Below are positions 35,190 through 53,074 of a DNA stretch of 64,000 nucleotides, in pieces. Each line of letters starts with the position of its first letter. The first letter of the stretch is position 1. The position numbers and the translations under genes are program-made. The notes under the pieces were generated by a model. That model did no database searches, was not told the origin of the DNA, and saw only the letters and a program-made list of their open reading frames with translations. The DNA is from Labilibaculum antarcticum (GTDB taxonomy: Bacteria > Bacteroidota > Bacteroidia > Bacteroidales > Marinifilaceae): the NCBI RefSeq assembly GCF_002356295.1, contig NZ_AP018042.1, positions 5,364,361-5,428,360 of the forward strand, read 5' to 3'.

Positions 35190-35906
35190 TCAAAAGGTAT
35201 CTGTTAAATCTGCTATTGTAAATAAATCCATCGGCTTCTTAACAATAATCCTTCGCTTTATTTTTACAATCAAACCTTCGTCGGCAAAACTACTAAGAAT
35301 TCTCACCAAAGTTTCAACTGCAATCCCAACAATATTGGCAAAATCTTCGCGTGTAAGCTCTATTTCAATTTCGTTGTCGATGTTTTTATTTTGTCGAAAG
35401 TTTTCGTTTAATATTAGCAAAGTGAGTGCTACCCGTTCTCTCACACTTTTTTTAGTGAACGTAGCAATAAAATTTACCATCACCCCAAATTCGTGGCTTA
35501 ATTTCATAACTAGCAATTTGGCTAATTCCTGATGCTTATCCAGTAAACATACTAGGCGGTCTTTCGATATATACCCTATCAATGATTCCGTAATTGCCGC
35601 CGCTGAATCGTGATATCTCTCTTCACCCATAAAGGCCGCATAACCTATCATTTCACCCTCGCAACACAAATATATAATTTGCTCTTTACCGCTATTCAAT
35701 GTTTTAAATTTTTTAATCTTCCCTTTTTTTACGAAATAAATTCCCGAAGGGAAAGCTCCCTCCGTAAAAATATTTTGACCTCTCTTGAAACGCTTAACAA
35801 TCATTTGATTTGTAAAATCTATCTGCACGTGTTCTGGCAAACTTTCAAAATCAAATTCTCTTTTCAAATGAAAACGCTCTCGTATCTTACTTAATGAATC
35901 TTCCAT
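35190..35906 (-). CDS. Crp/Fnr family transcriptional regulator
   Basis: A 238-residue regulator with an N-terminal cyclic-nucleotide-binding-type beta roll (KRGQNIFTEGAFPSGIYFVKKG) and a C-terminal HTH_Crp domain (LTREDFANIVGIAVETLVRILSSF). The recognition helix has the E-T-x-x-R arrangement that in FNR reads TTGAT half-sites, and a perfect TTGAT-N4-ATCAA box lies in the divergent promoter region. The N-terminus lacks the FNR iron-sulfur cysteines; the only paired cysteines (LCCEG) are in the beta roll. The sensed signal is therefore unclear. It diverges from the Ehr-like operon and probably controls it. Confidence 0.9.
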   Translation of the reverse strand: MEDSLSKIRERFHLKREFDFESLPEHVQIDFTNQMIVKRFKRGQNIFTEGAFPSGIYFVKKGKIKKFKTLNSGKEQIIYLCCEGEMIGYAAFMGEERYHDSAAAITESLIGYISKDRLVCLLDKHQELAKLLVMKLSHEFGVMVNFIATFTKKSVRERVALTLLILNENFRQNKNIDNEIEIELTREDFANIVGIAVETLVRILSSFADEGLIVKIKRRIIVKKPMDLFTIADLTDTF

Positions 35907-36043: not shown

Positions 36044-38053
36044 ATGGAAGTTTCACAAATAGCATTACTTACCCTTTTTGTTCTACTCGCTGGAATATTT
36101 GGAATAGCAGTAGTACCAAGTAAAAATAGAGCCTGGGTGGCTATTGTTGTTGTATTAATCAATTCTATACTTACCTCAATACCGTCGGTTTTGGCTTTAA
36201 TGGGTAATGCTCAAACAGGGACGCTCCTTTTGGCTCATTTACCTGGTGGCCTTATTAATGTTCAAGTAGACAATCTTTCGGCATGGTTTATATTAATTAT
36301 AAATTTTACTACAATAAACGGAGCTTTATTTGGTAGTGGATATTTAAAATCATATCAACATTTAAAAACAAACATAGGATTTCATTGGATATTTTATATT
36401 CTTTTTCACATTTCAATGGTATGGGTGTGCATGTTCGACCATGGAATCATCTTTCTTGTTGCATGGGAACTCATGTCTATTTCGTCGTTAATGCTTGTCA
36501 TATTTGAATATCAAAATAAAAACACGCTGAAAGCTGGACTTAATTATCTAATTCAGATGCACTTAAGCGTTGTTTTTTTAACCGTGGGTGTAATTTGGCT
36601 ATTTGCTGAAACCGGCTCTTTTAACCTTTCCTCTTTAAGTTCTGTGGTTTCAAACCAACATTCCATTTGGATTTTTATTCTCTTTTTTATTGGATTTGCT
36701 ATAAAAGCAGGTTTTCTGCCTTTCCACACATGGCTACCTCATGCACATCCGGCTGCTCCTTCGCATGTTTCAGGGGTAATGTCTGGGGTAATTGTTAAAT
36801 TAGGCATTTTCGGAATATTTCGTATTATCTCTTACATCACTCACGACTGGTTTATAATTGGAGAAGTTATCTTGAGTCTATCAGTAATTACAGCACTCTA
36901 TGGTATTATAAATGCATCTGTTAAATATGATTTTAAACGTGCATTGGCTTTTTGTACCATCGAAAATATTGGGATTATTGGAATTGGAATTGGTTTAGGA
37001 CTTATTGGAATTGGAGCACATAAAGATATGCTTGCTATCCTTGGTTTTGGGGGGGCATTATTACATTCTTTAAATCATTCTTTATTTAAATCCCTCTTAT
37101 TTTTTAGCGCTGGAAGTGTATATCAACAAACACATACCCGAAATATTGATAAACTGGGTGGACTAATAAAATCGATGCCAAAAACAGCCCTGTTTTTTCT
37201 AGTTGGCGCATTAGCAATTGGCGGTTTACCTCCGTTTAACGGATTTATTTCAGAATATCTAATCTATTCCGGTTTGTTCCATGGTTTATTCTCTGTATCA
37301 GGCATTTCACATGTTATACTAATTGTATTATCCATTGTTGGACTAGTACTGGTAGGAGGAATATCCATTATAAGCTTTACAAAATCGTTTGGAATCATGT
37401 TTTTAGGACAGCCAAGATCAGAACTACATAACACACCAACCGAGGCTTCATTCATTATGCTATTTCCACAATACCTCATTGTAGCAGTCATGTTATCAGT
37501 TGCCTTTTTTCCTCAGTTTTATTTTGGAATTACTCTAAATATTATTCATTCAATCTTTACAACGAAATTAATATTTAATGTTTCACAAATAGAAACTATC
37601 AGTACCAACCTAGCTACTATTGGGCATTTAAGTATATACTTTATAATTTTATTGGCACTGATTTTAATCGTCCGGTTTCAATTGATTAAAAAAAGAAAGG
37701 TTACTTTATACGAAACATGGAAATGTGGTTATGTAGCACCAATTCCGAAAGCACAATATTCAGGTCGTTCCTATGCCCGCACATTTGGTAGCCTATTTGG
37801 TTTCGTGCTAAACGAACGCAAGGCTAGAGATAAAATTTCAAAAACACAGTTATACCCAACACATTATAAGTTTTCTACCTATTATTTCGATTTATTAGAA
37901 AGATTTTTGGTATTGCCAATTACTAAACGAATGACATTAGTCTTGAATTATTTTCAGTTTATACAAAACGGTAAAATTCAATCCTATGTTATTTATGGCT
38001 TATTTTTTATTCTAATGGTTTTTATCGGAACAGTACTTAGTTTAATCAGTTAA
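36044..38053 (+). CDS. Ehr/hydrogenase-4-like proton-pumping subunit (HyfB/NuoL-type), paralogue 1
   Basis: A 669-residue antiporter-like membrane subunit with about 15-16 helices. Key stretches are the NuoL/HyfB ion-channel helices with WELMSISSLMLVIFEY (conserved Glu), FAIKAGFLPFHTWLPHAHPAAPSHVSG (conserved Lys) and GGALLHSLNHSLFKSLLFFSAG. The C-terminal part carries the HyfB-like cytoplasmic loop (ETWKCGYVAPIPKAQYSGRS). It is the first gene of the operon, 11 bp before its paralogue. It would translocate protons or sodium in an energy-converting complex. Confidence 0.9.
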   Translation: MEVSQIALLTLFVLLAGIFGIAVVPSKNRAWVAIVVVLINSILTSIPSVLALMGNAQTGTLLLAHLPGGLINVQVDNLSAWFILIINFTTINGALFGSGYLKSYQHLKTNIGFHWIFYILFHISMVWVCMFDHGIIFLVAWELMSISSLMLVIFEYQNKNTLKAGLNYLIQMHLSVVFLTVGVIWLFAETGSFNLSSLSSVVSNQHSIWIFILFFIGFAIKAGFLPFHTWLPHAHPAAPSHVSGVMSGVIVKLGIFGIFRIISYITHDWFIIGEVILSLSVITALYGIINASVKYDFKRALAFCTIENIGIIGIGIGLGLIGIGAHKDMLAILGFGGALLHSLNHSLFKSLLFFSAGSVYQQTHTRNIDKLGGLIKSMPKTALFFLVGALAIGGLPPFNGFISEYLIYSGLFHGLFSVSGISHVILIVLSIVGLVLVGGISIISFTKSFGIMFLGQPRSELHNTPTEASFIMLFPQYLIVAVMLSVAFFPQFYFGITLNIIHSIFTTKLIFNVSQIETISTNLATIGHLSIYFIILLALILIVRFQLIKKRKVTLYETWKCGYVAPIPKAQYSGRSYARTFGSLFGFVLNERKARDKISKTQLYPTHYKFSTYYFDLLERFLVLPITKRMTLVLNYFQFIQNGKIQSYVIYGLFFILMVFIGTVLSLIS

Positions 38054-38064
38054 AATCAGAAAGC

Positions 38065-40095
38065 ATGGATGAATACCTGATCCTGACACTTAATTTAATC
38101 GCTATTTTTTCGCTTGCGAGTTTTCCTTTTTTGAACTCGAAGAAACTTGGAATTGCTTCACTAATTGCAATTACGCTGCAAGTGATCCTATCATTTGTTT
38201 TGGCTTTTCAGGTTTTTTCAAAGGGTCAATTATTCTATAGCTACAGTGGATCATTTATAACAGGAACCATTCCGATAAAAATTGATTATCTGTCGGCATG
38301 GTTTATTCTAATTATCGGTTTTACTTTTCTAACAGGAGCTTGGTATGGCATTCAGTATATGAAAAAATATCAGGAGCAAACCAGTAATCTTCAACTACAT
38401 GCCATAACATACATAGTAACATTTACAGCAATGATTGATATTTGCATTGTACAAAATGCAATTATATTCCTCATTGTTTGGGAAATAATGGCTATCGGCT
38501 CATTCATCCTAATCATATTTGAACATTATAAAAAAGAGACCTTGAAGGCAGGGATTAATTTTTTCGTTCAATCACATATTTCCATCCTATTTTTAACTTT
38601 TGCATTTATTTGGGTAAAAGTAAAAACGGGTTCTTTTGATTTCTCAGCAATTACAGAATATTCAGCCTTACACCCATCAATGGGAATCGGTTTGTTTATT
38701 TTATTCTTCATTGGTTTTGCAATAAAAGCCGGCTTTGTCCCTTTTCACACTTGGTTACCTTTGGCTCACCCGGCTGCTCCGGCTCATATTTCGGGCATCA
38801 TGTCGGGAGTAATAATTAAAATTGGCATTTTCGGCATTTTACGAATGTTGTCGTTATTAAAAACAGATTTTACAGTTATTGGATATTTCATTCTAACTAT
38901 TTCAATTATAACTGGGCTGTATGGTGTAATGTTGGCAATTATTCAGCATAACCTCAAAAGACTTTTAGCCTATCATAGCATTGAAAATATTGGCATTATC
39001 GGAATGGGCATTGGACTCGGTTGCCTTGGTTTAGGAACAAGTAATCAATGGCTAATTATTGCAGGTTTCGGAGGCGCATTGCTTCACACCCTTAACCACT
39101 CATTATTTAAATCATTGCTCTTTTTTAGTGCTGGTAATGTTTATCAATTTACCCATACAATGAATATTGAATCATTGGGTGGGTTAATAAAGAAAATACC
39201 CAATACAGCTTGGTTTTTTTTAATTGGTTCGTTGGCAATTTGTGGTTTACCACCTTTTAATGGTTTTGTTTCAGAATTTTTCATCTACAATGGATTATTC
39301 AAAGGCTTGGGTTCAAACGATTTTAGGCTCACATTAACCATGCTGTTTTCAATATTAGCATTGGTACTTATTGGTGGTTTGGCTTTGATTTGTTTTACCA
39401 AAGCATTCGGGATTGTTTTTTTGGGAACAAAACGTTCCGAATTAAAAACTGATACAGATATTGAAACAACAAATCGTAATTTTCCACTCTACATCATTAT
39501 TTTGGCCATACTAATTATTGGTTTACTGCCATTTCTATTTTCTTCAGCACTTGTTAAGGTTATAGGAGTATTCAACATGCAACAAGAACCATTATTGCTA
39601 AGCCCATTACATGGAATATTAAACCAATTAACCAGTATTGGTTTCTATTCATTTGGATTTGTGTTGCTCACAGCTTTTGTCTTTCTTCTTAAACGACAAA
39701 TAATTAAACAGCGTGTACGCAAAGCTAATATAACTTGGGGGTGTGGATATGTCGGAAAAACAAACAAAATACAATATACAGCCTCGTCGTTCATACGCAC
39801 TTATCGAAAATTAATCGAACCTATACTATACATAAAAAAAGAGAAAGAAAATGTTGATGGTATCTATCCTAATCAAATTCACTCAACAACTCATCCTTAT
39901 GATAGAATAGAACATGTACTTATCGACAAACCTATTTATTTATTTAAAAAGATATTAAATCGCTTTATTTTTCTTCAGAATGGTAACATTCAGTCATACA
40001 TTTTATATGGCTCAATTTTTTTGATTACAGCTATTTTGTCTCCAATACTTATTTCAAAAATTATCGTATTAATCAATTTTTTAAATCAATTATAA
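38065..40095 (+). CDS. Ehr/hydrogenase-4-like proton-pumping subunit (HyfB/NuoL-type), paralogue 2
   Basis: 676 residues and clearly homologous throughout to the preceding gene: WEIMAIGSFILIIFEHYKKETLKAG, FAIKAGFVPFHTWLPLAHPAAPAHISG and GGALLHTLNHSLFKSLLFFSAG are nearly the same. The tail has TWGCGYVGKTNKIQYTASSF. Having two full-length HyfB-type subunits plus a HyfF-type subunit gives three antiporter-like modules, as in Hyf (HyfB, D, F) or complex I (L, M, N). Here two of them are recent paralogues. 1 bp separates it from the next gene. Confidence 0.9.
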   Translation: MDEYLILTLNLIAIFSLASFPFLNSKKLGIASLIAITLQVILSFVLAFQVFSKGQLFYSYSGSFITGTIPIKIDYLSAWFILIIGFTFLTGAWYGIQYMKKYQEQTSNLQLHAITYIVTFTAMIDICIVQNAIIFLIVWEIMAIGSFILIIFEHYKKETLKAGINFFVQSHISILFLTFAFIWVKVKTGSFDFSAITEYSALHPSMGIGLFILFFIGFAIKAGFVPFHTWLPLAHPAAPAHISGIMSGVIIKIGIFGILRMLSLLKTDFTVIGYFILTISIITGLYGVMLAIIQHNLKRLLAYHSIENIGIIGMGIGLGCLGLGTSNQWLIIAGFGGALLHTLNHSLFKSLLFFSAGNVYQFTHTMNIESLGGLIKKIPNTAWFFLIGSLAICGLPPFNGFVSEFFIYNGLFKGLGSNDFRLTLTMLFSILALVLIGGLALICFTKAFGIVFLGTKRSELKTDTDIETTNRNFPLYIIILAILIIGLLPFLFSSALVKVIGVFNMQQEPLLLSPLHGILNQLTSIGFYSFGFVLLTAFVFLLKRQIIKQRVRKANITWGCGYVGKTNKIQYTASSFIRTYRKLIEPILYIKKEKENVDGIYPNQIHSTTHPYDRIEHVLIDKPIYLFKKILNRFIFLQNGNIQSYILYGSIFLITAILSPILISKIIVLINFLNQL

Positions 40096-40096
40096 T

Positions 40097-41002
40097 ATGC
40101 TTAGCTTTTTACTTATAATAGTAGCAAGTATTTTTTTCATGGGCTTGGTGGTACGCACCAAGAGTCTAGCCTCGGGTAGAAAAGGTCCAGATATTTTGCA
40201 ACCAATGAGAGATATAGTCAGACTCTGGAGAAAGGGTTCTGTTTATAGTACAACAACCAGTATAATATTCCAGATTGCACCAACAATCTATTTCTCTTCC
40301 ATTATCATGGCAATTTTAATGATCCCCCACGGGAATATACCTGGGATTATTTCGTTTGGTGGCGATTTTGTGATGTTTGCTTATATTTTGGGCTTGGGTA
40401 AATTTATGCTGATTATATCTGCCTTAGATACAGGAAGTAGTTTTGAAGGTATGGGAGCAAGTCGAGAAGCCCTTTTTTCAATGTTGGTTGAACCCGCATT
40501 CTTTATTATTATGGGATCATTGGCTTTATTTACTGGACACACTTCCTTTCACGAAATATTTACCGCACTCAATTATGGATCGTACATTTCCTATATGATA
40601 GGAACCTTGGCCACCTTTGTATTGGTTTTAATCGCAATGATTGAGAATAGCCGCATGCCTATTGATGATCCAAAAACACACCTAGAACTAACTATGGTTC
40701 ATGAAGTTATGATATTGGATAACAGTGGTTTTGATTTGGGAGTTATTTTATATGCCACACCATTAAAATTTGCTATGTATGGCGCATTAATCGCTAATTT
40801 CTTTATTGGATCTGTTTCTCTACAAATTTCAATTCCTTTATTTATAGTCATTCAAACAGTTTTTGCAATAATCGTAGGCATTCTTGAATCGTTTATGGCA
40901 AGGTTTAGAATGAGCCACAACCCTCAATTTATTTTCATGCTTACTTCAATTTCACTACTTATCTTTTTTGGTGTACTACTGGTATTAGGAAAATTTATTT
41001 AA
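40097..41002 (+). CDS. Ehr/hydrogenase-4-like membrane anchor subunit (HyfC/NuoH-type)
   Basis: A 301-residue NuoH/HyfC homologue with about eight helices. In this family it forms the interface between the peripheral arm and the membrane arm (the quinone-like chamber). Visible are RTKSLASGRKGPDILQPMRDI near the N-terminus (conserved loop), LDTGSSFEGMGASREALFSMLVEP and IENSRMPIDDPKTHLELTMVHEVMILD (conserved acidic loop). Confidence 0.92.
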   Translation: MLSFLLIIVASIFFMGLVVRTKSLASGRKGPDILQPMRDIVRLWRKGSVYSTTTSIIFQIAPTIYFSSIIMAILMIPHGNIPGIISFGGDFVMFAYILGLGKFMLIISALDTGSSFEGMGASREALFSMLVEPAFFIIMGSLALFTGHTSFHEIFTALNYGSYISYMIGTLATFVLVLIAMIENSRMPIDDPKTHLELTMVHEVMILDNSGFDLGVILYATPLKFAMYGALIANFFIGSVSLQISIPLFIVIQTVFAIIVGILESFMARFRMSHNPQFIFMLTSISLLIFFGVLLVLGKFI

Positions 41003-41012
41003 CTCGACGAAT

Positions 41013-41642
41013 ATGACTGATATTTTATTAATAGTTTTTGCGATAACAGTACTCTTTATGAGTATTGCCAATAGGATATACACCTATATAAATATTCTTA
41101 TTTTCCAGGGGTTCATTCTTTTTGGGGTAACCTATTTATCACTTACGGAGATTAACACCTGGAACCTAATACTCATCATGTTAGAAACCATTATTTTTAA
41201 AGCTTTAGCAGTACCTCTCTTTATAAAATACCTTATAAAAAGGAATAAAATTACCAGAGAAGCAGAGCCTTACCTCCCAAACTTCATCTCTTTAATTATT
41301 GTGACAACTATTATCATTATTACTATTATTTTGTCAAGTTCCATTGAAGACACATACCTTGATAAAACTTATTTTGTTGTTGCCTTAGCTAATTTATTTA
41401 CAGGTTTATACTTAATTGTTTCAAGAAAAAAAATTATTATACACGTAATAGGTTATCTGATAATTGAAAATGGTGTATTTGTGCTGGCTCTCGCAGTGGG
41501 AAACGAAATGCCTATGCTAGTTAACCTTGGAATTATGCTAGACATATTTGCCAGTGTTCTTATCCTCGGGATTTTCTTCAACAAATTAGGAGATGTTATA
41601 AAAGACCCCGATGTCAATTTTTTACGAAAACTTAAAGACTAA
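41013..41642 (+). CDS. Ehr/hydrogenase-4-like subunit HyfE-type
   Basis: A 209-residue hydrophobic protein with about seven helices. The N-terminal half resembles HyfE/NuoK-like subunits (ILIFQGFILFGVTYL, LIMLETIIFKALAVPLFIKYLI). The second half has the conserved HyfE region IGYLIIENGVFVLALAVG, followed by MLDIFASVLILGIFFNKL. Position and size match HyfE of group 4 systems. Confidence 0.88.
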   Translation: MTDILLIVFAITVLFMSIANRIYTYINILIFQGFILFGVTYLSLTEINTWNLILIMLETIIFKALAVPLFIKYLIKRNKITREAEPYLPNFISLIIVTTIIIITIILSSSIEDTYLDKTYFVVALANLFTGLYLIVSRKKIIIHVIGYLIIENGVFVLALAVGNEMPMLVNLGIMLDIFASVLILGIFFNKLGDVIKDPDVNFLRKLKD

Positions 41643-41648
41643 TTCATA

Positions 41649-43073
41649 ATGATAGCAATATTTTTATTAGGTACGCTTCTTATTTGCAGTTTGCTTTTTT
41701 TCAATAAGAATACCATCGTTAATTACACCTTGGTTATAATCTATGCAATTTTACTTTGGGCATTAGGATTCTATGAGTACAATCATATTAATATAGTAGA
41801 GTTTGTATATTTTAAACCCGATGCGATAGGAGTTTTACTTCTCTTTGCCTTGTGTATTGTAAGTATTCCAACCCTATATCATTGTTATCTTTATATAGCA
41901 ACACACGATGAAACCCCACATAGTCGTGGTCTTTTCTTTGCTTCTATGATCATGTTGCTGTCTGCATGTAGTATGGCATATTTATCGAATCACATTGCTG
42001 TTACGTGGATATTTGTTGAACTGACCACACTAAGTGCATCTGCATTAATCTATCATCACCGTAACATCAGAGCACTTGAAGGGGTATGGAAATATGTCTT
42101 TATATGTGCCCTCAGCATTAGTTTTATCTATATAGGCATTCTTTTTTTGAGCCTTGCCATGAAGCAGGCCGGTATTGAAGATATGTCCTTTGATTCCATA
42201 ATGGAACATTACGACATGTTAAACCTTTTTTGGCTAAAACTTTCGTTCCTTTTTATCTTTACAGGTTTTACTGCAAAAATTGGTTTGGTACCCATGTACA
42301 CAGCAGGTATCGATGCCAAGGATAAAGCACCGGCACCAGCTGGAGCAATGTTTTCAAGTGTTTTAATGAACATGGGATTTATTGGAATTTATCGTATTTA
42401 TGGAATTGTCTCTCATACGCAAATTCAACATTGGGCATCTGTTATCATTATTATTTCGGCCGTATTGTCAATATTTGTTGCTACGGTTTATATGACTCAT
42501 ATAAAGAACATTAAACGAATGTTCGCTTATTCAAGTATTGAACATATGGGTATTGTAATGCTGGGCTTGGCAGTTGGTGGAATTGGTGTTTATGCTGCAA
42601 TTCTTCACATTATTCTGCATACTTTTGTAAAACCCAGTTTGTTTTTTCAGTTTAATCAGATATACAGAGTTTTTCAAAGTAAGAGCATCAATGATGTGGG
42701 CCACTACTTTAAATACAATAAAACAGGAGCCATTGTCATTTTATTGGGTTTTATTTCGGCAACGGCTATGCCACCTTCAGGATTGTTTATCAGTGAATTT
42801 TTAGTATTTCAATCACTTTTTGAAGCACACCAAATATTAATTCTAATTCTTGTATTGATTTTACTGACCATGATAATATGGGGTTTTGGGTCCAATATTT
42901 TTAAACTCTTATTTACTCCTCCTCTATCTATTGATGAAAGTAAGATCCCAAGAATAAATCCATTAGATTCTGTTTCTCAATATATCTTACTAGCACTAAG
43001 TGTTTACTTAGCTTATAACCCTCCAGCTGAATTTGTTAATTTGATTCAGGAGGCTGTTACACTTATTCAATAA
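41649..43073 (+). CDS. Ehr/hydrogenase-4-like proton-pumping subunit (HyfF-type)
   Basis: A 474-residue antiporter-like subunit with about 13-14 helices. Recognisable are TWIFVELTTLSASALIYHHRN (conserved Glu), FTAKIGLVPMYTAGIDAKDKAPAPAGAMFSS (conserved Lys region) and HIILHTFVKPSLFFQF. It aligns with HyfF/NuoN-type proteins and lies 6 bp behind the HyfE-type gene. A 92-bp gap follows before the large-subunit gene, the only sizeable gap in the operon. Confidence 0.9.
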   Translation: MIAIFLLGTLLICSLLFFNKNTIVNYTLVIIYAILLWALGFYEYNHINIVEFVYFKPDAIGVLLLFALCIVSIPTLYHCYLYIATHDETPHSRGLFFASMIMLLSACSMAYLSNHIAVTWIFVELTTLSASALIYHHRNIRALEGVWKYVFICALSISFIYIGILFLSLAMKQAGIEDMSFDSIMEHYDMLNLFWLKLSFLFIFTGFTAKIGLVPMYTAGIDAKDKAPAPAGAMFSSVLMNMGFIGIYRIYGIVSHTQIQHWASVIIIISAVLSIFVATVYMTHIKNIKRMFAYSSIEHMGIVMLGLAVGGIGVYAAILHIILHTFVKPSLFFQFNQIYRVFQSKSINDVGHYFKYNKTGAIVILLGFISATAMPPSGLFISEFLVFQSLFEAHQILILILVLILLTMIIWGFGSNIFKLLFTPPLSIDESKIPRINPLDSVSQYILLALSVYLAYNPPAEFVNLIQEAVTLIQ

Positions 43074-43165
43074 AAAATAAAACAAGTCTTTAAAATTACT
43101 TTTCTCACATTAGAAAAACTGTAAAGTAAGTTCTATGAAGCAATTGAATAACAAAATTTAGAAAC

Positions 43166-44668
43166 ATGAAATACATTTCCATCCATAATAATCAAACCAT
43201 TAATACAAAGGATATTCCTGTTTTAGGATATCAAGATTTTCTTGAAGAAAATATATCCTTATTAAAAGATCATACAGAAAAGCATTGTGTAAATTTTTTC
43301 GCTATTAACGAACAACCGCAAATAAAACTATTCTGTTGCATTGCCGACGATGATACCCATAAAATCTTTATTAATTCCTCCACTATAAATGTTGGAGATA
43401 AAGTTTCTTCTTTAACAAATCATAATCATAACTTCGAGAAGTTTGAACGTGAGATTCATGAAAATTTCGGAATAGATTATATCGATCATCCGTGGTTAAA
43501 ACCAATGCGTTTTGCACACAACAGGGCGAATAAAAAACAAGGCATTGCCGATTATCCATTCTTTCAGGCCGATAGTGAAGAACTGCATGAAGTAGGCGTA
43601 GGTCCTATTCATGCAGGGATTATTGAACCTGGGCATTACAGGTTTATTTGCAATGGTGAACAAATTCTACATTTAGAAATTCAATTGGGCTATCAGCATA
43701 GAGGTATTGAGCAATTAATGCTGAAAAAAACCAAACTTCTGGAACGTGCTACCATAGTTGAAAATATTGCAGGAGATACCGCAATTGGCCACTCTACAGC
43801 TTTCTCAAATTTATGGGAAAGTTTATGTGAATACGAAACCGATGATTTCTTGCATTATTCGCGGACGATTGCTCTGGAACTAGAGAGAATCGCTATTCAT
43901 ACCGGTGATCTCGGAGGTGTTTGTGCCGATATAGCCTATCAATTAGGAAATTCAGTTTATGGAAGATTGCGCACACCTATTGTTAATTTTTTTCAGGAAT
44001 GGGGAGGGAATAGACTTGCAAAAGGTTTAATACGACCAGGAAAAATAAATTACCCGTTTACTAAAGATTTAGCAAAGAGACTGATCGAATTATTTGAGGC
44101 ATATGAACGAGATTTTAACGAAATGTCTAAAAAGTTCTTTTCATTACCCAGTACACTGGCAAGAATGGAAAGAACCGGAATTGTTACAATCGAACAAGCA
44201 TTTGAAATTGGCGCTGTTGGAATGGTAGCAAGAACTTGTGGCATAAATCGGGATATTCGCCTATCCCACCCAAATAACCTATATGGTCAAACAATCCTTC
44301 ATGAGCCTATTGTTAAACATCACGGTGATGTGTATTCAAGAGTTAGATTAAGGAGAGAAGAAATATTACAATCCATCAGTTATTGTAAAAAATTGCTGGA
44401 AAACATACCTAATTTCAAAAAACCAACAATAACCGATTTTAAGTCAGGAAAAGAAAAATTCACCTTGTCTTTGGTAGAAGGCTGGCGTGGAGAAATCTGT
44501 CATTGTGCCATTACCGATGGTGATGGAAATTTAAAAACTTATAAAATAAAAGATCCATCACACCACAATTGGATGGCTCTGGCTCAAGCTGTTCGAAACA
44601 ATGAGATTTCAGATTTCCCGATATGTAACAAAAGCTTTAATCTTTCCTATTGTGGTCACGACTTATAA
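43166..44668 (+). CDS. Ehr-type large subunit (NuoC-NuoD/HyfG-like) lacking NiFe ligands
   Basis: 500 residues: a NuoC-like N-terminal domain (about 20-120, EKFEREIHENFGIDYIDHPWLKP) fused to a NuoD/hydrogenase large-subunit domain (about 145-500). The N-terminal NiFe-binding motif of hydrogenases (ERICGIC-type) reads ENIAGDTA at residues 199-206, without cysteine. The C-terminal DPCxxC motif reads NLSYCG at 492-497. All but one cysteine of the two pairs are gone, so no NiFe site can form. This places it with energy-converting-hydrogenase-related (Ehr) complexes and outside the hydrogenases. Confidence 0.9.
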   Translation: MKYISIHNNQTINTKDIPVLGYQDFLEENISLLKDHTEKHCVNFFAINEQPQIKLFCCIADDDTHKIFINSSTINVGDKVSSLTNHNHNFEKFEREIHENFGIDYIDHPWLKPMRFAHNRANKKQGIADYPFFQADSEELHEVGVGPIHAGIIEPGHYRFICNGEQILHLEIQLGYQHRGIEQLMLKKTKLLERATIVENIAGDTAIGHSTAFSNLWESLCEYETDDFLHYSRTIALELERIAIHTGDLGGVCADIAYQLGNSVYGRLRTPIVNFFQEWGGNRLAKGLIRPGKINYPFTKDLAKRLIELFEAYERDFNEMSKKFFSLPSTLARMERTGIVTIEQAFEIGAVGMVARTCGINRDIRLSHPNNLYGQTILHEPIVKHHGDVYSRVRLRREEILQSISYCKKLLENIPNFKKPTITDFKSGKEKFTLSLVEGWRGEICHCAITDGDGNLKTYKIKDPSHHNWMALAQAVRNNEISDFPICNKSFNLSYCGHDL

Positions 44669-44678
44669 CAAGACGAAA

Positions 44679-45941
44679 ATGGATACTAAATTAAATAAAG
44701 AAGCACTACTTTACCACACTAGCAAACGACCAGGTAAGCTTGAAGTAATATCCAGTAAACCTTGTGATTCTGCATACGATTTATCTCTGGCATACACCCC
44801 AGGGGTTGCTGAACCTTGCCTGAGAATTAAAGAAAATCCTGATGATGTATATAAATACACGATTAAGGGGAATCTTGTTGCTATTATTACGAATGGTACT
44901 GCGGTACTTGGACTTGGCAATTTGGGTGCTTTGGCTTCAAAGCCTGTAATGGAAGGCAAAGCCATGTTACTTAAAAAATATGCAGATATAAATGCCTTTG
45001 ATATTGAGTTGGATACAACTGATGTCGATATTTTTGTTAGGACGGTAATTACCATGTCGCCTACATTTGGGGCAATAAATCTTGAAAATATAAAAGCTCC
45101 GGAATGTTTTGAAATTGAAAAACGGTTAATTGCTGCCCTTAATATTCCGGTAATGCACGATGACCAACATGGAACAGCCATTGTATCAGCCGCTGGTTTG
45201 CTAAATGCCTGTGAAATTGCCGGTAAAAAACTGCAAAACATTAAGATTGTGGTTAATGGTGCTGGTTCAGCAGCTATGGCCTGCTCAAATATGTATTTGT
45301 CGCTCGGAGTAAAAAAAGAAAATCTATTGATGCTCGATAACAAAGGAGTTATTTCAAAAAACCGAATTGACCTTAGTAAATATAAACAAGCTTTTGCTAT
45401 TAACACCAATTTAAGCACATTAGCACAAGCTGTGGAAAGTGCCGATGTCTTTATCGGACTGTCTAAAGCAAATCTAATGACTCCTAAAATGGTTCAGTCC
45501 ATGGCCGAGAATCCCATTGTTTTTGCTTTGGCCAATCCAAATCCCGAAATTACATACAATGAGGCCATTAAGGCGAAATCTGGAATTATTTATGCTTCTG
45601 GTCGCAGCGATATTCCTAATCAAATAAATAATGTATTAGGGTTTCCCTATATTTTTAGAGCCGCTCTTGATGTTAGGGCAATAAAAATTAATATGGAAAT
45701 GAAAAAAGCTGCCGTTTATGCACTAGCATCTATCGCTAAAGAACCCTTTTTAAGTATTGATAGCAGTGAATCGCTTTCATTTGGTCGCGATTATTTTATT
45801 CCGCGTCCTTCCGATTTAAGATTATTGAGAACTATTGTTCCTGCCGTGGCAAAAGCTGCCATTGATAGCGGGGTAGCCAGAATAGATATTCCTGATATGA
45901 TAAGCTATATAAAAGAATTAGATAAACGTATAATAAAATAA
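44679..45941 (+). CDS. Minimal malic enzyme encoded within the Ehr-like operon
   Basis: A 420-residue malic enzyme without the C-terminal phosphotransacetylase-like domain of MaeB. It catalyses oxidative decarboxylation of malate to pyruvate with NAD(P)+. Catalytic and metal residues are present: LAYTPGVAEPC (Tyr), GKAMLLKKYADINAFDIEL (Lys and acidic residues), HDDQHGTAIV (metal Asp), and the dinucleotide motif VVNGAGSAAMAC. The gene lies 10 bp after the large-subunit gene and 5 bp before the small-subunit gene, so it is co-transcribed and interrupts the usual subunit order. I start at 44679; the longer frame from 44601 would overlap the large subunit. Confidence 0.9.
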   Translation: MDTKLNKEALLYHTSKRPGKLEVISSKPCDSAYDLSLAYTPGVAEPCLRIKENPDDVYKYTIKGNLVAIITNGTAVLGLGNLGALASKPVMEGKAMLLKKYADINAFDIELDTTDVDIFVRTVITMSPTFGAINLENIKAPECFEIEKRLIAALNIPVMHDDQHGTAIVSAAGLLNACEIAGKKLQNIKIVVNGAGSAAMACSNMYLSLGVKKENLLMLDNKGVISKNRIDLSKYKQAFAINTNLSTLAQAVESADVFIGLSKANLMTPKMVQSMAENPIVFALANPNPEITYNEAIKAKSGIIYASGRSDIPNQINNVLGFPYIFRAALDVRAIKINMEMKKAAVYALASIAKEPFLSIDSSESLSFGRDYFIPRPSDLRLLRTIVPAVAKAAIDSGVARIDIPDMISYIKELDKRIIK

Positions 45942-45946
45942 AAAAC

Positions 45947-46696
45947 ATGTTCGATAACCTTAAAATAGTTTGGCATCAGGGTAAACAGTTTATACCTGAT
46001 GTTACCAAGGTAGAAGTTCCTGGTATTTTCAGGGGAAGACCTGTAATTTCAAAAAACAAAGTAGATGAACAAATTTTGGTTGATTTATGTCCGACAAAAG
46101 CCATTAGCTGTGCTCCCTTTAGCATCGACCTTGGCAAATGTACCTATTGCGGAGAATGTGCTGTGCAATTTCCAGATAAAATAAAGTTTACTAAAGACTA
46201 TAAACTTTCGACAAACATCCGAGAAAATTTAATTATTTACGAAGGCATTGATGAACCTATTCAGATGGATACTGAAAGTGTCAGAAAAGAAATTTATAGT
46301 TTATTTGGTCGATCATTAAAGCTTAGACAGGTGTCGGCTGGTGGTGATAATAGTTGCGAGTGGGAGTTAACTTCATCAAACAACGTGCAGTTTGATATGA
46401 GTCGCTTTGGTATCGACTTTGTAGCCTCGCCACGTCATGCTGATGGAATAGTTATAACTGGTCCCATAACTGAAAATATGGCTGAACCTTTGCAACGTTG
46501 TTATGATGCTATACCAGAACCAAAAATAATTATTCTTGTTGGAGTCGACGCTATTAGTGGAGGAATATTTGCTGATAGTCCAGCTATTGACAGAAGTTTT
46601 TTATCGAAACATCATGTTGATTTATATGTGTCAGGTAATCCGGTGCATCCTCTAAGTTTTATTAATGGTGTACTTTCCTTAACAAGGAAAAAATAG
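45947..46696 (+). CDS. Ehr-type small subunit: HyfH-like ferredoxin domain fused to NuoB/HyfI-like domain
   Basis: A 249-residue fusion. Residues 1-90 match HyfH-type proteins (KVEVPGIFRGRPV, DLCPTKAI, LGKCTYCGECAVQFP). The first CxxCxxC motif is missing; Cys48, 65, 68 and 71 remain, enough for one [4Fe-4S] cluster. Residues ~115-249 match HyfI/NuoB. Of the four proximal-cluster cysteines only Cys137 survives: the CxxC pair reads GGDNSCEWE (Asp134), the third position reads VGVDAISGG (Asp201), and the fourth reads SGNPVHP (Asn231). Normally HyfH and HyfI are separate, so this is both a fusion and a stripped electron path. Confidence 0.85.
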   Translation: MFDNLKIVWHQGKQFIPDVTKVEVPGIFRGRPVISKNKVDEQILVDLCPTKAISCAPFSIDLGKCTYCGECAVQFPDKIKFTKDYKLSTNIRENLIIYEGIDEPIQMDTESVRKEIYSLFGRSLKLRQVSAGGDNSCEWELTSSNNVQFDMSRFGIDFVASPRHADGIVITGPITENMAEPLQRCYDAIPEPKIIILVGVDAISGGIFADSPAIDRSFLSKHHVDLYVSGNPVHPLSFINGVLSLTRKK

Positions 46697-48771: not shown

Positions 48772-49659
48772 TCAGTGCTCCATTTTTAATTCAGAACTGG
48801 CTATTTTCTTCCAAAGCTCCGATAGTGTATTGACAATCTCAGAATCTTTATTGTACTCCACCATTGTTTTCTTCTCAACCATGGAATAAACCATTTCTTC
48901 GGAGAAGGGAAGTTTTCCCATCAACTGAATGCCCTCCCTGGCAAAGAAGCTCTCCATTTGCTTGGTAATATCTAAGTTGATATCAAATTTATTGATTAAT
49001 GCGTACATCGGTATATTAAACGACTGCACCAATTCAATCAAGCGGACGATATCATGAAATCCTGATTTACTGGGCTCTGTAACCAAAATTACAGCATCAG
49101 CTCCGGTAATAGATGCAATAGCTGCACATCCAATTCCGGGAGGGCCATCATTCAATATAAAATCAGCCTTAATTTCCAGTGCAATATCTTTTGCGCTTTT
49201 GCGGATTTGAGTCACCAGTTTTCCGGAGTTTTCTTCTCCTGGTCCCATTTTAGCATGAACCAACGGACCAAAACGTGTATCAGACACATACCAATGGTTA
49301 TTTATACTTCGCATTGAACTGATAGCTTGCGTAGGACAAACACGTTCGCAAAGACGGCAACCTTCGCAGGCAAATGGATCAATTTGTAATCCTCCATCCG
49401 ATTTAAAATGAATTGCCTCAAATTTACAATGTTGTTGACAAAGACCACAATTAGTACACAAATCTGTATCGATGGAAGCAACCCATGCTCCCTCAAATAC
49501 ATGAGTCTCCTTATTTTTTGGTTGAAAAATAATATGAAGATCAGCTGCATCAACATCCGCATCAACAAAAACAGTGTTTTCAATTACAGAAGCCAAAGCT
49601 GCCGTAATACTGGTCTTTCCTGTTCCCCCCTTACCACTAAGAATAGTTATATCCTTCAT
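48772..49659 (-). CDS. MinD-superfamily ATPase with inserted ferredoxin domain, paralogue 1
   Basis: A 295-residue P-loop ATPase with deviant Walker A SGKGGTGKTS and a 2x[4Fe-4S] ferredoxin insert (residues ~60-115: DLCTNCGLCQQHCKFEAI and ACEGCRLCERVCPTQAI). Downstream are FILNDGPPGIGCAAIAS (switch II) and VILVTEPSKSGFHD. This type (COG1149) pairs with a sister ATPase in the ORP complex of Desulfovibrio, where the proteins assemble or serve the Mo-Cu cluster protein. Both paralogues are encoded side by side here (1-bp spacing). Confidence 0.88.
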   Translation of the reverse strand: MKDITILSGKGGTGKTSITAALASVIENTVFVDADVDAADLHIIFQPKNKETHVFEGAWVASIDTDLCTNCGLCQQHCKFEAIHFKSDGGLQIDPFACEGCRLCERVCPTQAISSMRSINNHWYVSDTRFGPLVHAKMGPGEENSGKLVTQIRKSAKDIALEIKADFILNDGPPGIGCAAIASITGADAVILVTEPSKSGFHDIVRLIELVQSFNIPMYALINKFDINLDITKQMESFFAREGIQLMGKLPFSEEMVYSMVEKKTMVEYNKDSEIVNTLSELWKKIASSELKMEH

Positions 49660-49660
49660 A

Positions 49661-50527
49661 TTAATTCAATTTTTTCAAATATTCAACCACCTCTTTATAC
49701 ACCTTTGCAAATTCAAGTGGAACACAACGCACAATTTCACCTTTGGAATATAAACCTGCATATTCTTTACTAAAAGGAATTTCACCCAACAAATCAATAT
49801 TTTCTGCTTTCAGAAACTCATAAACTTCAGAATTTCCTAATCCAGCTTTATTTACAAAAACACCAAAAGGTTTATTTACCTCTCTCAATAAGTCAACCGT
49901 CAGCTTCAAATCATATACTCCGAAAGGAGTTGGTTCAGTCACCAAAATCACAAAATCAGCATCCGAAATAGTTTCTACAACCGGGCAACTGGTACCCGGA
50001 GGAGCATCGTAAATCAAAATATCATGTTCTCCAACTAAATTGTTTTTTAAATCCTTAATTAGTATGGTTTGTAATGGAGATCCAATACGTAAGTTTCCTT
50101 CCATCAGACTCATCTCATTACCAATATTGTAATTAGTCACCGTTCCAATAGTATCTGTGGTTTCATGAATAGCATCAAACTCACAGGCCACAAAACAAGC
50201 ACCACAAGAATGACACAAATCCTTATTTACAGTAGCATACTGCATCGATGGCATCATTACTATTGCATTAAACTCACAATAATCTTCACACTTTTTACAA
50301 AACGTACATTTAGCAGTATCAATTTCAGGAATTACATGTTCTACCGGCTTTTCACTTTTAACCGAAAAATTGGGAAAAAACAGCAAGTCATTTGGCTCTT
50401 CAACATCACAATCAACCAACTGTACACTTCTTGTCCAATTTTCATTGATCGAAGAAAACAAATTAACCGCAAATGTTGTCTTTCCAGTTCCTCCCTTACC
50501 ACTCGCAATAGCTACTTTAAATGCCAT
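49661..50527 (-). CDS. MinD-superfamily ATPase with inserted ferredoxin domain, paralogue 2
   Basis: A 288-residue sister of the downstream gene: Walker A SGKGGTGKTT, ferredoxin insert with AKCTFCKKCEDYCEFNAI and DLCHSCGACFVACEFDAI, and switch region LIYDAPPGTSCPVVE followed by VILVTEPTPFGVYD. It probably forms a heterodimer with the other MinD-type protein. Its start overlaps the DUF89 gene stop by 11 bp. Confidence 0.88.
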   Translation of the reverse strand: MAFKVAIASGKGGTGKTTFAVNLFSSINENWTRSVQLVDCDVEEPNDLLFFPNFSVKSEKPVEHVIPEIDTAKCTFCKKCEDYCEFNAIVMMPSMQYATVNKDLCHSCGACFVACEFDAIHETTDTIGTVTNYNIGNEMSLMEGNLRIGSPLQTILIKDLKNNLVGEHDILIYDAPPGTSCPVVETISDADFVILVTEPTPFGVYDLKLTVDLLREVNKPFGVFVNKAGLGNSEVYEFLKAENIDLLGEIPFSKEYAGLYSKGEIVRCVPLEFAKVYKEVVEYLKKLN

Positions 50528-51377
50528 AATCTCCTTTTCTGTTTTTTGTGATAATCAAATCGCCCTTACAAACGTCCAACATTTCTGCAATTACATCGCA
50601 TTTTGCCATCAGCATAAAATAAAGCGATTCCTTTTTTTCATTTAGTAAACCTTCAAAATTACCTTGTCCTTTAGAAATCACAACATCTGCTTTTCTAAAC
50701 AGTTCTTGAAATTCTATAGAACAATTATCCACTAAAGTTGAAGGTGCATCATGACCATTGGAAATCAATTTACAAACTTCCTGCATTCCAACCTGCTCGG
50801 CATCTTCAAGAGTCACATCATTAATAATTGGGGTTCCCCGCACAGCATAAGTTAAATTAGGATGATTCAAATGTTGAATGAAAAGCTTATCGAAAACTAT
50901 TTCTCCTGCATTATCCCCCAAATACAAAACTGAATTTGCCTTTTTTATTTCAGCAAACATCTGAGCTCTATCATCCAAAGTAAAATCAAGTGCGAGGAGT
51001 TCTTCTATTTTGGCCGGAATATCAGTAGGCACACTGTGTGCACCATAATCAATAATATTCCCAACAACAGCTAATTTTGATGCAATGTGTAAAGGCTCAT
51101 TCTGTTGAGTCACAAAAGAATTCCATTTTTCATACTGCGAAAACAAAATTGCATTTGCATACTTCTTCTCTTCTAAATACAAATCGTTATTTTGTATTTT
51201 CTTTTTCGCCAAACGATGAATCAACAATGCCAGATAAGGATTGGAGAGATGCGTAAAATCTGTAAGTAAATGATTTACTTCTGAGGAAAAATCGCTGGCG
51301 ACTTTCCCCTGAAGATTAAATTTGTCAATTAATAAATCCACCGTTTTGGAATGGCAAGCCAAACACCTGTTGTCCAT
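50517..51377 (-). CDS. DUF89 / ARMT1-like damage-control phosphatase family protein
   Basis: About 286 residues. The N-terminal helix has C-x2-C (MDNRCLACHSKTVDLLIDKF), and the metal-dependent active-site motif is LYLGDNAGEIVFDKLF. The C-terminal part has ADVVISKGQGNFEGL. DUF89 proteins are Mg/Mn/Ni-dependent phosphatases that destroy damaged phosphometabolites in characterised cases. The prokaryotic C-x2-C type (COG1578) is often found next to NifX-like and MinD-type genes, as here. I start at 51377; a frame from 51392 would overlap the upstream gene. Confidence 0.85.
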   Translation of the reverse strand: MDNRCLACHSKTVDLLIDKFNLQGKVASDFSSEVNHLLTDFTHLSNPYLALLIHRLAKKKIQNNDLYLEEKKYANAILFSQYEKWNSFVTQQNEPLHIASKLAVVGNIIDYGAHSVPTDIPAKIEELLALDFTLDDRAQMFAEIKKANSVLYLGDNAGEIVFDKLFIQHLNHPNLTYAVRGTPIINDVTLEDAEQVGMQEVCKLISNGHDAPSTLVDNCSIEFQELFRKADVVISKGQGNFEGLLNEKKESLYFMLMAKCDVIAEMLDVCKGDLIITKNRKGDYGI

Positions 51378-51379
51378 AT

Positions 51380-51718
51380 TTAGTGGTCGCAATAGTTAGC
51401 AGTAAAGCTTAAACTTTCATTCAAAAAACCAGTAACCAATTCTTTTGCACCCATTTGAGGAGCTCCAACAAATACATTTACATTGTGTTTATTAAAGATT
51501 TGGATCGCTTGATTTCCCATTCCTCCGGCAATTACATCAGTAACTCCTAAATCAGCCAAGAATGGAGGCAATAATCCAGGCTCATGTGGTGGAGCTGCAA
51601 CTAAATCTTCAGCAACAATAGTATTATCCATTACATCAAGCAATGCAAAATGTGAACAATGGCCAAAATGTCCATCTAAAATTCCTTCCTTAACCGGAAC
51701 TGCAATTTTCTTTTTCAT
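51380..51718 (-). CDS. NifX/NifB C-domain (ORP-fold) protein, paralogue 1
   Basis: A 112-residue protein of the dinitrogenase iron-molybdenum cofactor biosynthesis fold (IAVPVKEGILDGHFGHCSHFALLDV, DVIAGGMGNQAIQIFNKH). The fold includes the orange protein ORP, which binds a Mo-Cu sulfide cluster, as well as NifX and NafY. It contains GHFGHCSHF, with His and Cys typical of metal sites. No nitrogenase genes are in the window, so nitrogen fixation is not implied. Confidence 0.87.
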   Translation of the reverse strand: MKKKIAVPVKEGILDGHFGHCSHFALLDVMDNTIVAEDLVAAPPHEPGLLPPFLADLGVTDVIAGGMGNQAIQIFNKHNVNVFVGAPQMGAKELVTGFLNESLSFTANYCDH

Positions 51719-51939
51719 ATAAGTGTATTTTCAAAAAAAGTTAAACTAATCCCATACAACAGGGAATACTATCAATATGTATTTATTTTTTATTTCAAAT
51801 ATCGCTCCTATCCCAAAAAAAACGATAAGAATAGCACTTCAACACAAGATCTACCCCTATAATTCGTGAAGAAGTACAGGAGCAAAAACCTTGTGTTTCT
51901 TACTAATCAGGACATTTTAAGAAACAAAAAAACAGATTT

Positions 51940-52137
51940 CTAATCATTCATTCTACCTCGGCGAAGCCTTTGTCCTCTCCCTTGTCCAAAGCCAAATCCT
52001 TGTCTCCTGCCTTTTTCAGTAGTTTCACCTTGAACTTCATTTTCAGAATCAATCTTACTATTACTGTTACATCGTCCCATTCCTCGGCCAGTGCGGGCAC
52101 CTTTGCCCTCCGGACCCCTTCGATCTAATCCAGGCAT
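51940..52137 (-). CDS. Small Gly/Arg-rich DUF5320-like protein 1
   Basis: 65 residues, starting MPGLDRRGPEGKGARTGRGMGRC and ending in Gly/Arg repeats (QGFGFGQGRGQRLRRGRMND). The MPxxDxxGPxGxGxxTGRGxGxC head is typical of DUF5320 proteins associated with NifX/ORP-like clusters in anaerobes. Function unknown; a role in cluster delivery is only a guess. Confidence 0.75.
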   Translation of the reverse strand: MPGLDRRGPEGKGARTGRGMGRCNSNSKIDSENEVQGETTEKGRRQGFGFGQGRGQRLRRGRMND

Positions 52138-52151
52138 TTCAACCTCCTTTT

Positions 52152-52337
52152 TTAAATTGATTTACTACTTTTCAATCTTTTACCTTGACCTTTACCACAA
52201 TCCCCTTTGCGTTTCAATCCCAAACCTTTCCCTAACTTCTCTAGTAAAGTATTTTGGTCTACTTCAGAACATTGTCCTAGTCCTCTTCCCGATTTTGAAC
52301 CTTCTCCTTCAGGTCCTTTTCCATCCAAGTGCGGCAT
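52152..52337 (-). CDS. Small Gly-rich DUF5320-like protein 2
   Basis: 61 residues with the same head (MPHLDGKGPEGEGSKSGRGLGQC), then EVDQNTLLEKLGKGLGLKRKG and a Lys/Gly-rich tail. It lies 14 bp from its sister and 10 bp behind the second NifX-like gene. Confidence 0.75.
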   Translation of the reverse strand: MPHLDGKGPEGEGSKSGRGLGQCSEVDQNTLLEKLGKGLGLKRKGDCGKGQGKRLKSSKSI

Positions 52338-52347
52338 AATAATTTGA

Positions 52348-52665
52348 TTAAGATTTCAATTGATCTATAATGCGTTGCATCGTATTCTTGTCATCTTGCA
52401 ACAACACCATTTGAATATTAAACTTTTCAAGTAATTCTTTGGCTTTAGGCCCAAAATCACCCGAAATCACTTTTTTAACTCCTAGTTCAACTACTTTTTC
52501 TACAGTTTTGGTTCCTGCTCCACTTTGCGCGTTGATATTTTCATTCTCGATAAAACTGATTTCACCTGATTGATCATCATATAAACAAAACCAACTAGCT
52601 CTTCCAAAACGTAAATCAAAAACGGAATTCAATTGATTTCCTGTTGATGTAATAATTGTCTTCAT
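52348..52665 (-). CDS. NifX/NifB C-domain (ORP-fold) protein, paralogue 2
   Basis: 105 residues with the same fold as the product of 51380-51718 (NSVFDLRFGRASWFCLYDD, GVKKVISGDFGPKAKELLEKF). The metal-site-like His/Cys cluster of paralogue 1 is replaced by RFGRASWFC, so the two may have different cargo. It follows the DUF134 gene by 4 bp. Confidence 0.85.
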   Translation of the reverse strand: MKTIITSTGNQLNSVFDLRFGRASWFCLYDDQSGEISFIENENINAQSGAGTKTVEKVVELGVKKVISGDFGPKAKELLEKFNIQMVLLQDDKNTMQRIIDQLKS

Positions 52666-52669
52666 ATTT

Positions 52670-53074
52670 TTATTTATTTAGTAATTCGATTTGTTTCGAA
52701 TTACAAGCCGGACAAGTTCCTTTATCCATTGTGTCTGGAATATTAAACCTTGCATTACATTTTGAGCACAAATACCAGTCTTTATCCATAATTGCGTTCC
52801 CAAAAACAGTTTTTATTTCCTTTGCTTCAACCAAGGCCATAGCAATTTTTCTTCTTGCACTTTCGTAGATTCGTGCAAAAGTTGGCCTTGACACACCCAT
52901 TAACCCAGCTGCTTCATCATGTTTTAGGAAATCGTAATCAGCTAATTTCAAAGCTTCATATTCTTCATAAAGTAAATCGACTGATTTCCGACTCTTAGAA
53001 CTCACACCAAAAGGTCTATATCCTTTAAATCTTGGCGGTTCTACGACCTTACGTAATCTAATTCTTCTTGGCAT
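52670..53074 (-). CDS. DUF134 family HTH protein with C-terminal zinc ribbon
   Basis: A 134-residue protein. The N-terminal DUF134 segment (MPRRIRLRKVVEPPRFKGYRPFG) leads into a sigma-factor-like HTH (YEEYEALKLADYDFLKHDEAAGLMGVSRPTFARIYESARRKIA) and a CxxC...CxxC zinc ribbon (LCSKCNARF, TCPACNSK). It is the first gene of the nine-gene operon and the likely autoregulator, binding the palindrome in its own promoter. DUF134 genes accompany ORP-like clusters in many anaerobes. Confidence 0.87.
   Translation of the reverse strand: MPRRIRLRKVVEPPRFKGYRPFGVSSKSRKSVDLLYEEYEALKLADYDFLKHDEAAGLMGVSRPTFARIYESARRKIAMALVEAKEIKTVFGNAIMDKDWYLCSKCNARFNIPDTMDKGTCPACNSKQIELLNK

Follow-up and report, generated by a model that had tools for sequence, protein, structure and literature searches.

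An operon at positions 36044-46696 of a 64,000-nucleotide stretch of the Labilibaculum antarcticum genome (contig NZ_AP018042.1, positions 5,364,361 to 5,428,360; this whole stretch is called the window here) encodes, according to sequence matches within the window, an energy-converting-hydrogenase-related (Ehr) complex. Antiporter-type HyfB and HyfF subunits, HyfC, HyfE and the large and small subunits are all encoded in the operon, as in other members of Ehr, and the reading frames of its eight genes are intact (Table 1). The large subunit is related to those of group 4 hydrogenases and lacks the NiFe-binding cysteines, which places the complex in Ehr; in addition, the small subunit lacks the ligands of the proximal [4Fe-4S] cluster. 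A description made from the DNA letters only (the sequence-only reading) had taken the operon for a group 4 hydrogenase/complex I-like, Ehr-like machine, and this is confirmed by the gene content and the missing NiFe cysteines. By the published definition the complex is an Ehr; what is new is the loss of the proximal cluster.

Table 1. Genes and sites of the Ehr operon and its upstream region (positions in the window).
Feature	Position	Strand	Basis or remark
Crp/Fnr-type regulator	35190..35906	-	divergent from operon; open reading frame, named by reading
FNR-box-like palindrome TTGATTCAAATCAA	35960..35973	+	upstream of operon; presumed consensus
HyfB/NuoL-M-like antiporter-type subunit 1	36044..38053	+	family matches; charged residues conserved
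HyfB/NuoL-M-like antiporter-type subunit 2, tandem second copy	38065..40095	+	family matches
HyfC/NuoH-like membrane subunit	40097..41002	+	family match; charged residues
HyfE/NuoK-like membrane subunit	41013..41642	+	hydrogenase 4 membrane subunit, E 8.5e-17, below curated cut-off; weak in second search
HyfF/NuoN-like antiporter-type subunit	41649..43073	+	family matches; charged residues
Ehr large subunit, NuoC + NuoD/HycE-like fusion, 500 aa	43166..44668	+	
First former NiFe-ligand motif ENIAGDTA, residues 199-206	43760..43783	+	aligned to CxxC of HyfG/HycE
Second former NiFe-ligand motif NLSYCG, residues 492-497	44639..44656	+	conservation in 90 sequences
Malic-enzyme-like protein without phosphotransacetylase domain, possibly a pseudo-enzyme	44679..45941	+	family matches
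Ehr small subunit, 249 aa: N-terminal ferredoxin-like domain fused to NuoB/HycG-like domain	45947..46696	+	
Single four-cysteine site of ferredoxin domain (C48, C65, C68, C71)	46088..46159	+	98/98 sequences
Former proximal-cluster ligand positions D134, C137, D201, N231	46346..46639	+	alignments

The small subunit and its clusters

Relatives of the operon were collected by a scan of genome contigs with six peptide patterns, which kept 80 loci out of 172 stretches encoding a relative, and by a whole-protein search that contributed another 17 loci, giving together with the window 98 distinct small subunits. One of the six patterns spells the D134-C137 stretch, so that this sampling favours Cys137. 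The sets of 49 (tree), 46 (23 proximal-intact and 23 proximal-lost) and 60 sequences used below were chosen, not drawn at random.

Residue-by-residue alignments place D134, C137, D201 and N231 of the window protein opposite the four proximal [4Fe-4S] cysteines of MbhJ and HycG, as the sequence-only reading had claimed. The possibility that the ligands are merely shifted was rejected on the complete list of cysteines (residues 48, 55, 65, 68, 71, 137 and 185) and on the alignments. Escherichia coli NuoB reads L-C-C-C at the four proximal columns of the 60-sequence alignment, presumably because its proximal motif is laid out differently. In the 98 sequences D134 is invariant, D201 is present in 96 (Glu in two) and N231 in 97 (Tyr in one); the replacements are conserved among related Bacteroidota and, being fixed to this extent, point to selection and not to decay. 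Cys137 occurs in 91 and is otherwise Ala (four), Asn (two) or Gly (one): it is retained in 79/80 loci of the pattern scan and in 11 of the 17 loci of the whole-protein search, all of which keep D134, D201 and N231 (17/17 each). Judged by these absences, the one remaining cysteine is not needed. No close homologue (0/98) has the full proximal ligand set, and complexes that retain it are found further out.

Neither an N2-type cluster, as in respiratory complex I, nor the proximal [4Fe-4S] cluster present in the intact Ehr examined is therefore seen in the small subunit; in the passages of the literature that define Ehr, such a cluster forms no part of the definition. The change is confined to a few positions. 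When the 34 small-subunit columns conserved to at least 95% in 23 intact Ehr were followed in 23 proximal-lost members, Cys134, Cys201, Cys231 and Pro233 dropped to 0.00-0.04 and Gly132, Cys137 and Pro229 stood at 0.74-0.78, the remaining columns staying at 0.87 or more. The fold comparison of this subunit covered residues 110-249, and the confidence of its predicted structure (predicted local distance difference test, pLDDT) is below 50 at residues 134-148.

The statement that no obvious redox centre is left beside the pocket holds for the proximal cluster but had overlooked a [4Fe-4S] site in the fused ferredoxin-like domain, which comprises about residues 1-110. Its four-cysteine site (C48 and C65-x2-C68-x2-C71) is present in 98/98 sequences, the full cysteine set of the other ferredoxin cluster is absent (a stray cysteine precedes C48 in 14/98) and the Pfam Fer4 match falls narrowly below the family cut-off (20.9 vs 21.1 bits). 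The domain probably binds one [4Fe-4S] cluster, and no known electron carrier would lie between this cluster and the pocket.

The set of 60 small subunits, which includes three E. coli reference proteins and from which L195, L201 and L202 were left out, gives an indication of the order of the losses. The 24 proximal-lost members have four to six ferredoxin cysteines and none has eight (0/24). Another 27 keep both the proximal ligands and the ferredoxin domain, 17 of them with at least eight cysteines and ten having lost the first cluster (L174 only partly), and six Ehr without a ferredoxin domain all have the proximal ligands. Loss of the proximal cluster with both ferredoxin clusters kept was not found among these 60 sequences, so that the electron wire seems to have been dismantled from its outer end, the outer ferredoxin cluster probably being lost first.

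The large subunit and its pocket

The absence of the NiFe ligands was corroborated by alignment with HyfG/HycE, in which E199-N-I-A-G-D-T-A lies opposite the first CxxC (DRVCGICGF) and N492-L-S-Y-C-G opposite the second (DPCYSC). None of the four NiFe-binding cysteines is present, and the two CxxC motifs that characterize [NiFe]-hydrogenases of group 4 are missing. Cys496 was considered as a surviving ligand and rejected, as it is off the ligand position and is a cysteine in 55/90 sequences only. The alignment also places I153 and G203 in the columns of a His and a Tyr of E. coli NuoCD, which we take to be the quinone head-group ligands of complex I (NuoD positions as we assume them); a complex-I-type quinone site is accordingly not expected in Ehr.

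The pocket itself is strongly conserved. Residues E199, G203, D204, S494, Y495, G497 and D499 are invariant in 90/90 Bacteroidota large subunits, and of the 63 columns of this subunit that intact Ehr conserve, 57 remain at 0.91 or more in proximal-lost members. In the latter set the pocket columns G203, S490, Y495 and G497 stand at 1.00, K489 and D499 at 0.96 and D204 at 0.91, the main exceptions in the motif being Mycobacterium branderi and its intact Caballeronia neighbour. The same large-subunit signature is shared by plasmid-borne relatives, which also lack the NiFe ligands.

Membrane subunits

The charged residues of the antiporter-type subunits, which we take to form the ion path, were compared in sets that mix proximal-intact and proximal-lost complexes. 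Of 141 HyfB-type sequences at least 99% carry E142, K221, K252, H345, K349 and E404, which E. coli HyfB has as well; E124, K210, K289 and K328 are found in 101/101 HyfF-type sequences, as in HyfF. NuoL, NuoM, NuoN and HycC do not share some of them. The charged residues of the HyfC subunit are conserved too, and two HyfB-type genes occur in 39/45 loci.

Independent losses of the proximal cluster

A tree of 49 taxa was built from concatenated small- and large-subunit columns with the ligand columns excluded (L124 is represented without a large subunit). The 21 proximal-lost Bacteroidota formed one group (support 97) with the intact L163 adjoining (100), M. branderi was paired with the intact Caballeronia complex (100) and Meiothermus stood apart. 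In a small-subunit tree of 60 taxa M. branderi was grouped with three intact Burkholderiaceae (99). Parsimony requires three changes on the concatenated tree and four on the small-subunit tree, and on these trees there are at least three proximal losses: in Bacteroidota, in Meiothermus and in M. branderi.

Positions 134/137/201/231 read T/D/E/S in Meiothermus and N/D/D/A in M. branderi. Each lost lineage has a carboxylate at 134 or 137 plus one at 201 (D134/D201, D137/E201 and D137/D201), and the ferredoxin domain is incomplete in each of the three. The Allomeiothermus silvanus plasmid pMESIL01 (L133, L178) carries two copies of a proximal-cluster-less operon, several of the proteins having identical accessions.

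Distribution and related complexes

Nearly all of the 80 kept loci belong to records whose names give Bacteroidales, Bacteroidetes or a group within these, and where the genes are complete their usual order is B-B-C-E-F-L-S, with exceptions such as L084, in which the operon is broken and the large and small subunit genes are on opposite strands. One of the operons, L087, is that of the cultured Breznakibacter xylanolyticus DSM 6779. A full-length close homologue (at least 56% identity) was found in the window's genome and in 19 others of 144 related genomes, and pieces in three more. A search of eight other genomes of the genus detected no small-subunit homologue. The distribution looks patchy, as would be expected after transfer or repeated loss.

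A search of 395 Bacteroidota genomes gave 17 matches at E 1e-25 or better, including that of the window. Of the other 16, L162 is proximal-lost like the window and 15 retain all four proximal cysteines, as do several plasmid-borne relatives. At the class level, a search with an intact member gave 25/197 at 1e-30.

A close comparison is offered by the complex on a Variovorax sp. PBL-E5 plasmid (L131) and by those of more distant Bacteroidota (L163, L165, L168-L173), which have the same ferredoxin-NuoB fusion, the same C-E-F-L-S order and small subunits 47-57% identical to that of the window. They differ from the window complex in having an eight-cysteine ferredoxin domain, four proximal cysteines and mostly a single HyfB. 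Variovorax sp. PBL-E5 has a second, different Ehr-like operon (L131, 17625-24809) 3.4 kb downstream of the first, with HyfB, C, E, F, large and small subunits and no ferredoxin part.

The malic-enzyme-like gene and the junction between subunit genes

A malic-enzyme-like gene, overlooked in the sequence-only reading, sits between the large- and small-subunit genes. It is present in 4/80 related loci (one copy partial), which marks it as an accessory and not as part of the motor; a malic enzyme as a general partner of the complex was rejected for the same reason, some of the copies being truncated besides, and because the junction is occupied by other genes in other loci. Identity to the window copy is 84% in L039, 81% in L032 and 61% in L034, and two longer malic enzymes of the same genome are 60-61% identical to it.

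The window copy has E-N in place of E-D, the Asp of this pair being in our assumption a metal ligand of malic enzyme, and solved relatives carry Asp where it has Asn; HDDQ and the Tyr of AYTPGV, whose roles are likewise presumed, are kept. At least two presumed metal-ligand residues are lost in the L032 and L034 copies, L034 lacking also the Tyr motif, and L039 is intact. Presumed metal ligands are thus replaced in 3/4 complete copies, and the protein may be turning into a pseudo-enzyme.

Other genes occur at the same junction. A cation/H+ antiporter-like gene is found there in L094, and other loci have a transposase or small open reading frames resembling four-helix bundles (all named by reading), as in an insertion-prone junction.

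What may drive the complex

Altogether, the alignments show an Ehr with a dismantled electron wire, and it is tentatively proposed, as the account that we favour without being convinced of it, that what is left is an ion exchanger gated by a ligand in the old active-site pocket. The complex would act as a secondary ion exchanger, probably for Na+/H+; the cell carries nqrA and rnfC genes. Binding of a non-redox ligand in the pocket would change the conformation of the HyfC channel and thereby gate the antiporter modules. The remaining ferredoxin cluster could serve as a structural element or as a redox or oxygen sensor, and the carboxylates at 134/137 and 201 may preserve the negative charge, or hold a metal ion, at the place of the former cluster, in which case the fold and electrostatics of the coupling region would persist. 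Two options had been offered by the sequence-only reading, a different substrate in the pocket or an ion translocator driven by something other than electron transfer; the second is the better supported and would agree with this proposal. The general form of the proposal, in which a machine of the complex I superfamily retains its entire hydrophilic arm and has its ion modules governed by the binding of a non-redox ligand, is advanced with still more reserve, as a possibility.

Several observations weigh against ligand gating in a complex without its wire. The four-cysteine ferredoxin site is invariant and electron transfer could still matter, and the conserved residues D/C/D/N could hold a redox metal of a kind not foreseen. 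Among the 63 large-subunit columns, six are not kept (G137, L197, G293, T337, G359 and G439), M. branderi lacks the pocket signature (ASFGLCYAGVAM; G-I replaces G-D), and the predicted structure has pLDDT below 50 in the pocket (residues 125-176 and 479-500). E. coli HycC, with Leu in the K221 column, shows that some of the "ion-path" residues are dispensable in the superfamily. Finally, the small-subunit tree puts the intact L163 inside the lost Bacteroidota (joint group 70), so that a single loss in this phylum would be recovered by the concatenated tree alone.

The alternative that survives best, a redox drive by an unusual route, is rather unlikely. The ferredoxin cluster, or a soluble donor at the pocket, would pass electrons to a substrate bound in the large subunit, perhaps by way of a mononuclear metal or modified cluster at D134/C137/D201/N231. 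The invariance of the ferredoxin site (98/98), the near-invariance of D134, D201 and N231, as expected of metal ligands, and the strong conservation of the pocket all agree with such a route. Conversely, Cys137 is missing in 7/98 sequences, including 6/17 of the loci found without pattern bias, and the residues of Meiothermus (T/D/E/S) and M. branderi (N/D/D/A) leave no common set of metal ligands. Without a proximal centre the gap between the ferredoxin cluster and the pocket would be well over the distance of efficient tunnelling, on the complex I geometry that we assume, and the operon has no dehydrogenase gene apart from the malic-enzyme-like one, itself found in 4/80 loci.

It is doubtful that the complex is an ungated, Mrp-like antiporter in which the hydrophilic arm is a structural cap for assembly, with neither ligand nor sensing. 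The loss of the wire, the intact and doubled antiporter-type subunits (39/45 loci) and the antiporter-like gene between the large and small subunit genes of L094 are what this reading would predict, but a mere cap needs neither the invariant G203-D204 and S494-Y495-x-G497-x-D499 (90/90) nor an invariant ferredoxin cluster. A partial Fe-S cluster at the proximal site, ligated by Asp and Cys, is improbable. D134 and D201 are exactly at ligand positions and Asp-ligated [4Fe-4S] clusters are known; against this, Cys137 gives way to Ala, Asn or Gly in 7/98 sequences, and six of these belong to the 17 loci that have D134, D201 and N231 unchanged, and we know of no clear precedent for an Fe-S cluster ligated by O and N only. 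That these are decaying, non-functional genes, as the absence of the small subunit from all eight other genomes of the genus and the replaced residue of the malic-enzyme-like neighbour (presumably a metal ligand) might suggest, is hardly credible in view of eight intact reading frames, conserved membrane charges and exact replacements and pocket conserved over 98 and 90 sequences.

Relation to known systems

Marreiros 2013 is reportedly the key paper on Ehr. Mrp antiporters carry out Na+/H+ transport without redox chemistry; the window complex resembles them in its antiporter-type subunits and differs in its hydrophilic NuoB/NuoCD-like arm, which Mrp lacks. Compared with the E. coli formate hydrogenlyase and hydrogenase 4 (HycE/HycG, HyfG/HyfI), it has neither the NiFe site nor the proximal cluster.

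Ehr complexes without NiFe ligands have been reported in Margulisbacteria, Candidate Phyla Radiation (CPR) bacteria, comammox Nitrospira and ammonia-oxidizing archaea (AOA) (PMC6349859, PMC7304191, PMC10284858, PMC10432482), the CPR members being likewise devoid of the NiFe cysteines (PMC7304191). Two of these papers call their function unknown (PMC10284858, PMC10432482), and in another, redox-coupled charge translocation is suspected (PMC6349859). Geobacter sulfurreducens had higher levels of Ehr subunits on formate than under hydrogen-containing conditions (PMC7894505). As described in these sources, the Ehr of Geobacter, Margulisbacteria, CPR, Nitrospira and AOA share with the window complex the likeness to group 4 hydrogenases, the absence of NiFe ligands and the antiporter-type subunits; the window complex would differ in the lack of the proximal and one ferredoxin cluster, in the tandem HyfB and in a malic-enzyme-like gene in few members. 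No description of an Ehr lacking the proximal cluster was found in the open-licence literature searched.

It has long been asked how reactions in the hydrophilic arm of complex I can power the movement of ions tens of angstroms from it. A widespread natural relative in which arm, pocket and ion path persist and the final electron carrier is missing sets the delivery of electrons apart from the coupling step. If ligand gating is true, the proximal-lost lineages would amount to an experiment in cutting the wire that nature has run three times or more, and the Ehr class may never have required electron transfer to the pocket. Reductant-free transport and the identity of the pocket ligand offer a testable handle on the function of Ehr in many phyla.

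Regulation and genomic surroundings

The palindrome upstream of the operon, read against a presumed FNR-box consensus, is perfect and occurs once in the window vs 0.39 expected by chance, which alone is not significant. FNR-like sites matching at least 9/10 positions were found in 11/49 upstream regions (window included), against rates of 2.5% in random pieces and 3.4% in shuffles, and a similar divergent regulator gene is present in 8/45 loci having at least 800 bp upstream. One may reasonably guess that the operon is under oxygen control.

This small subunit is the genome's only match to the NuoB family, so that there is no sign of a complex I or of a NiFe-hydrogenase small subunit. Matches to nqrA and rnfC above the cut-offs are present, for which reason the Ehr complex was rejected as the organism's only respiratory entry point, and there are six [FeFe]-hydrogenase family matches.

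Elsewhere in the window, the minus strand at 48772-53074 encodes, by reading, two MinD/Mrp-type ATPases with ferredoxin motifs, NifX/NifB-type small proteins and a DUF134-like gene, a cluster that presumably resembles those of the orange-protein type. A transposase of the REP-associated type, also named by reading, lies at 1214-1855.

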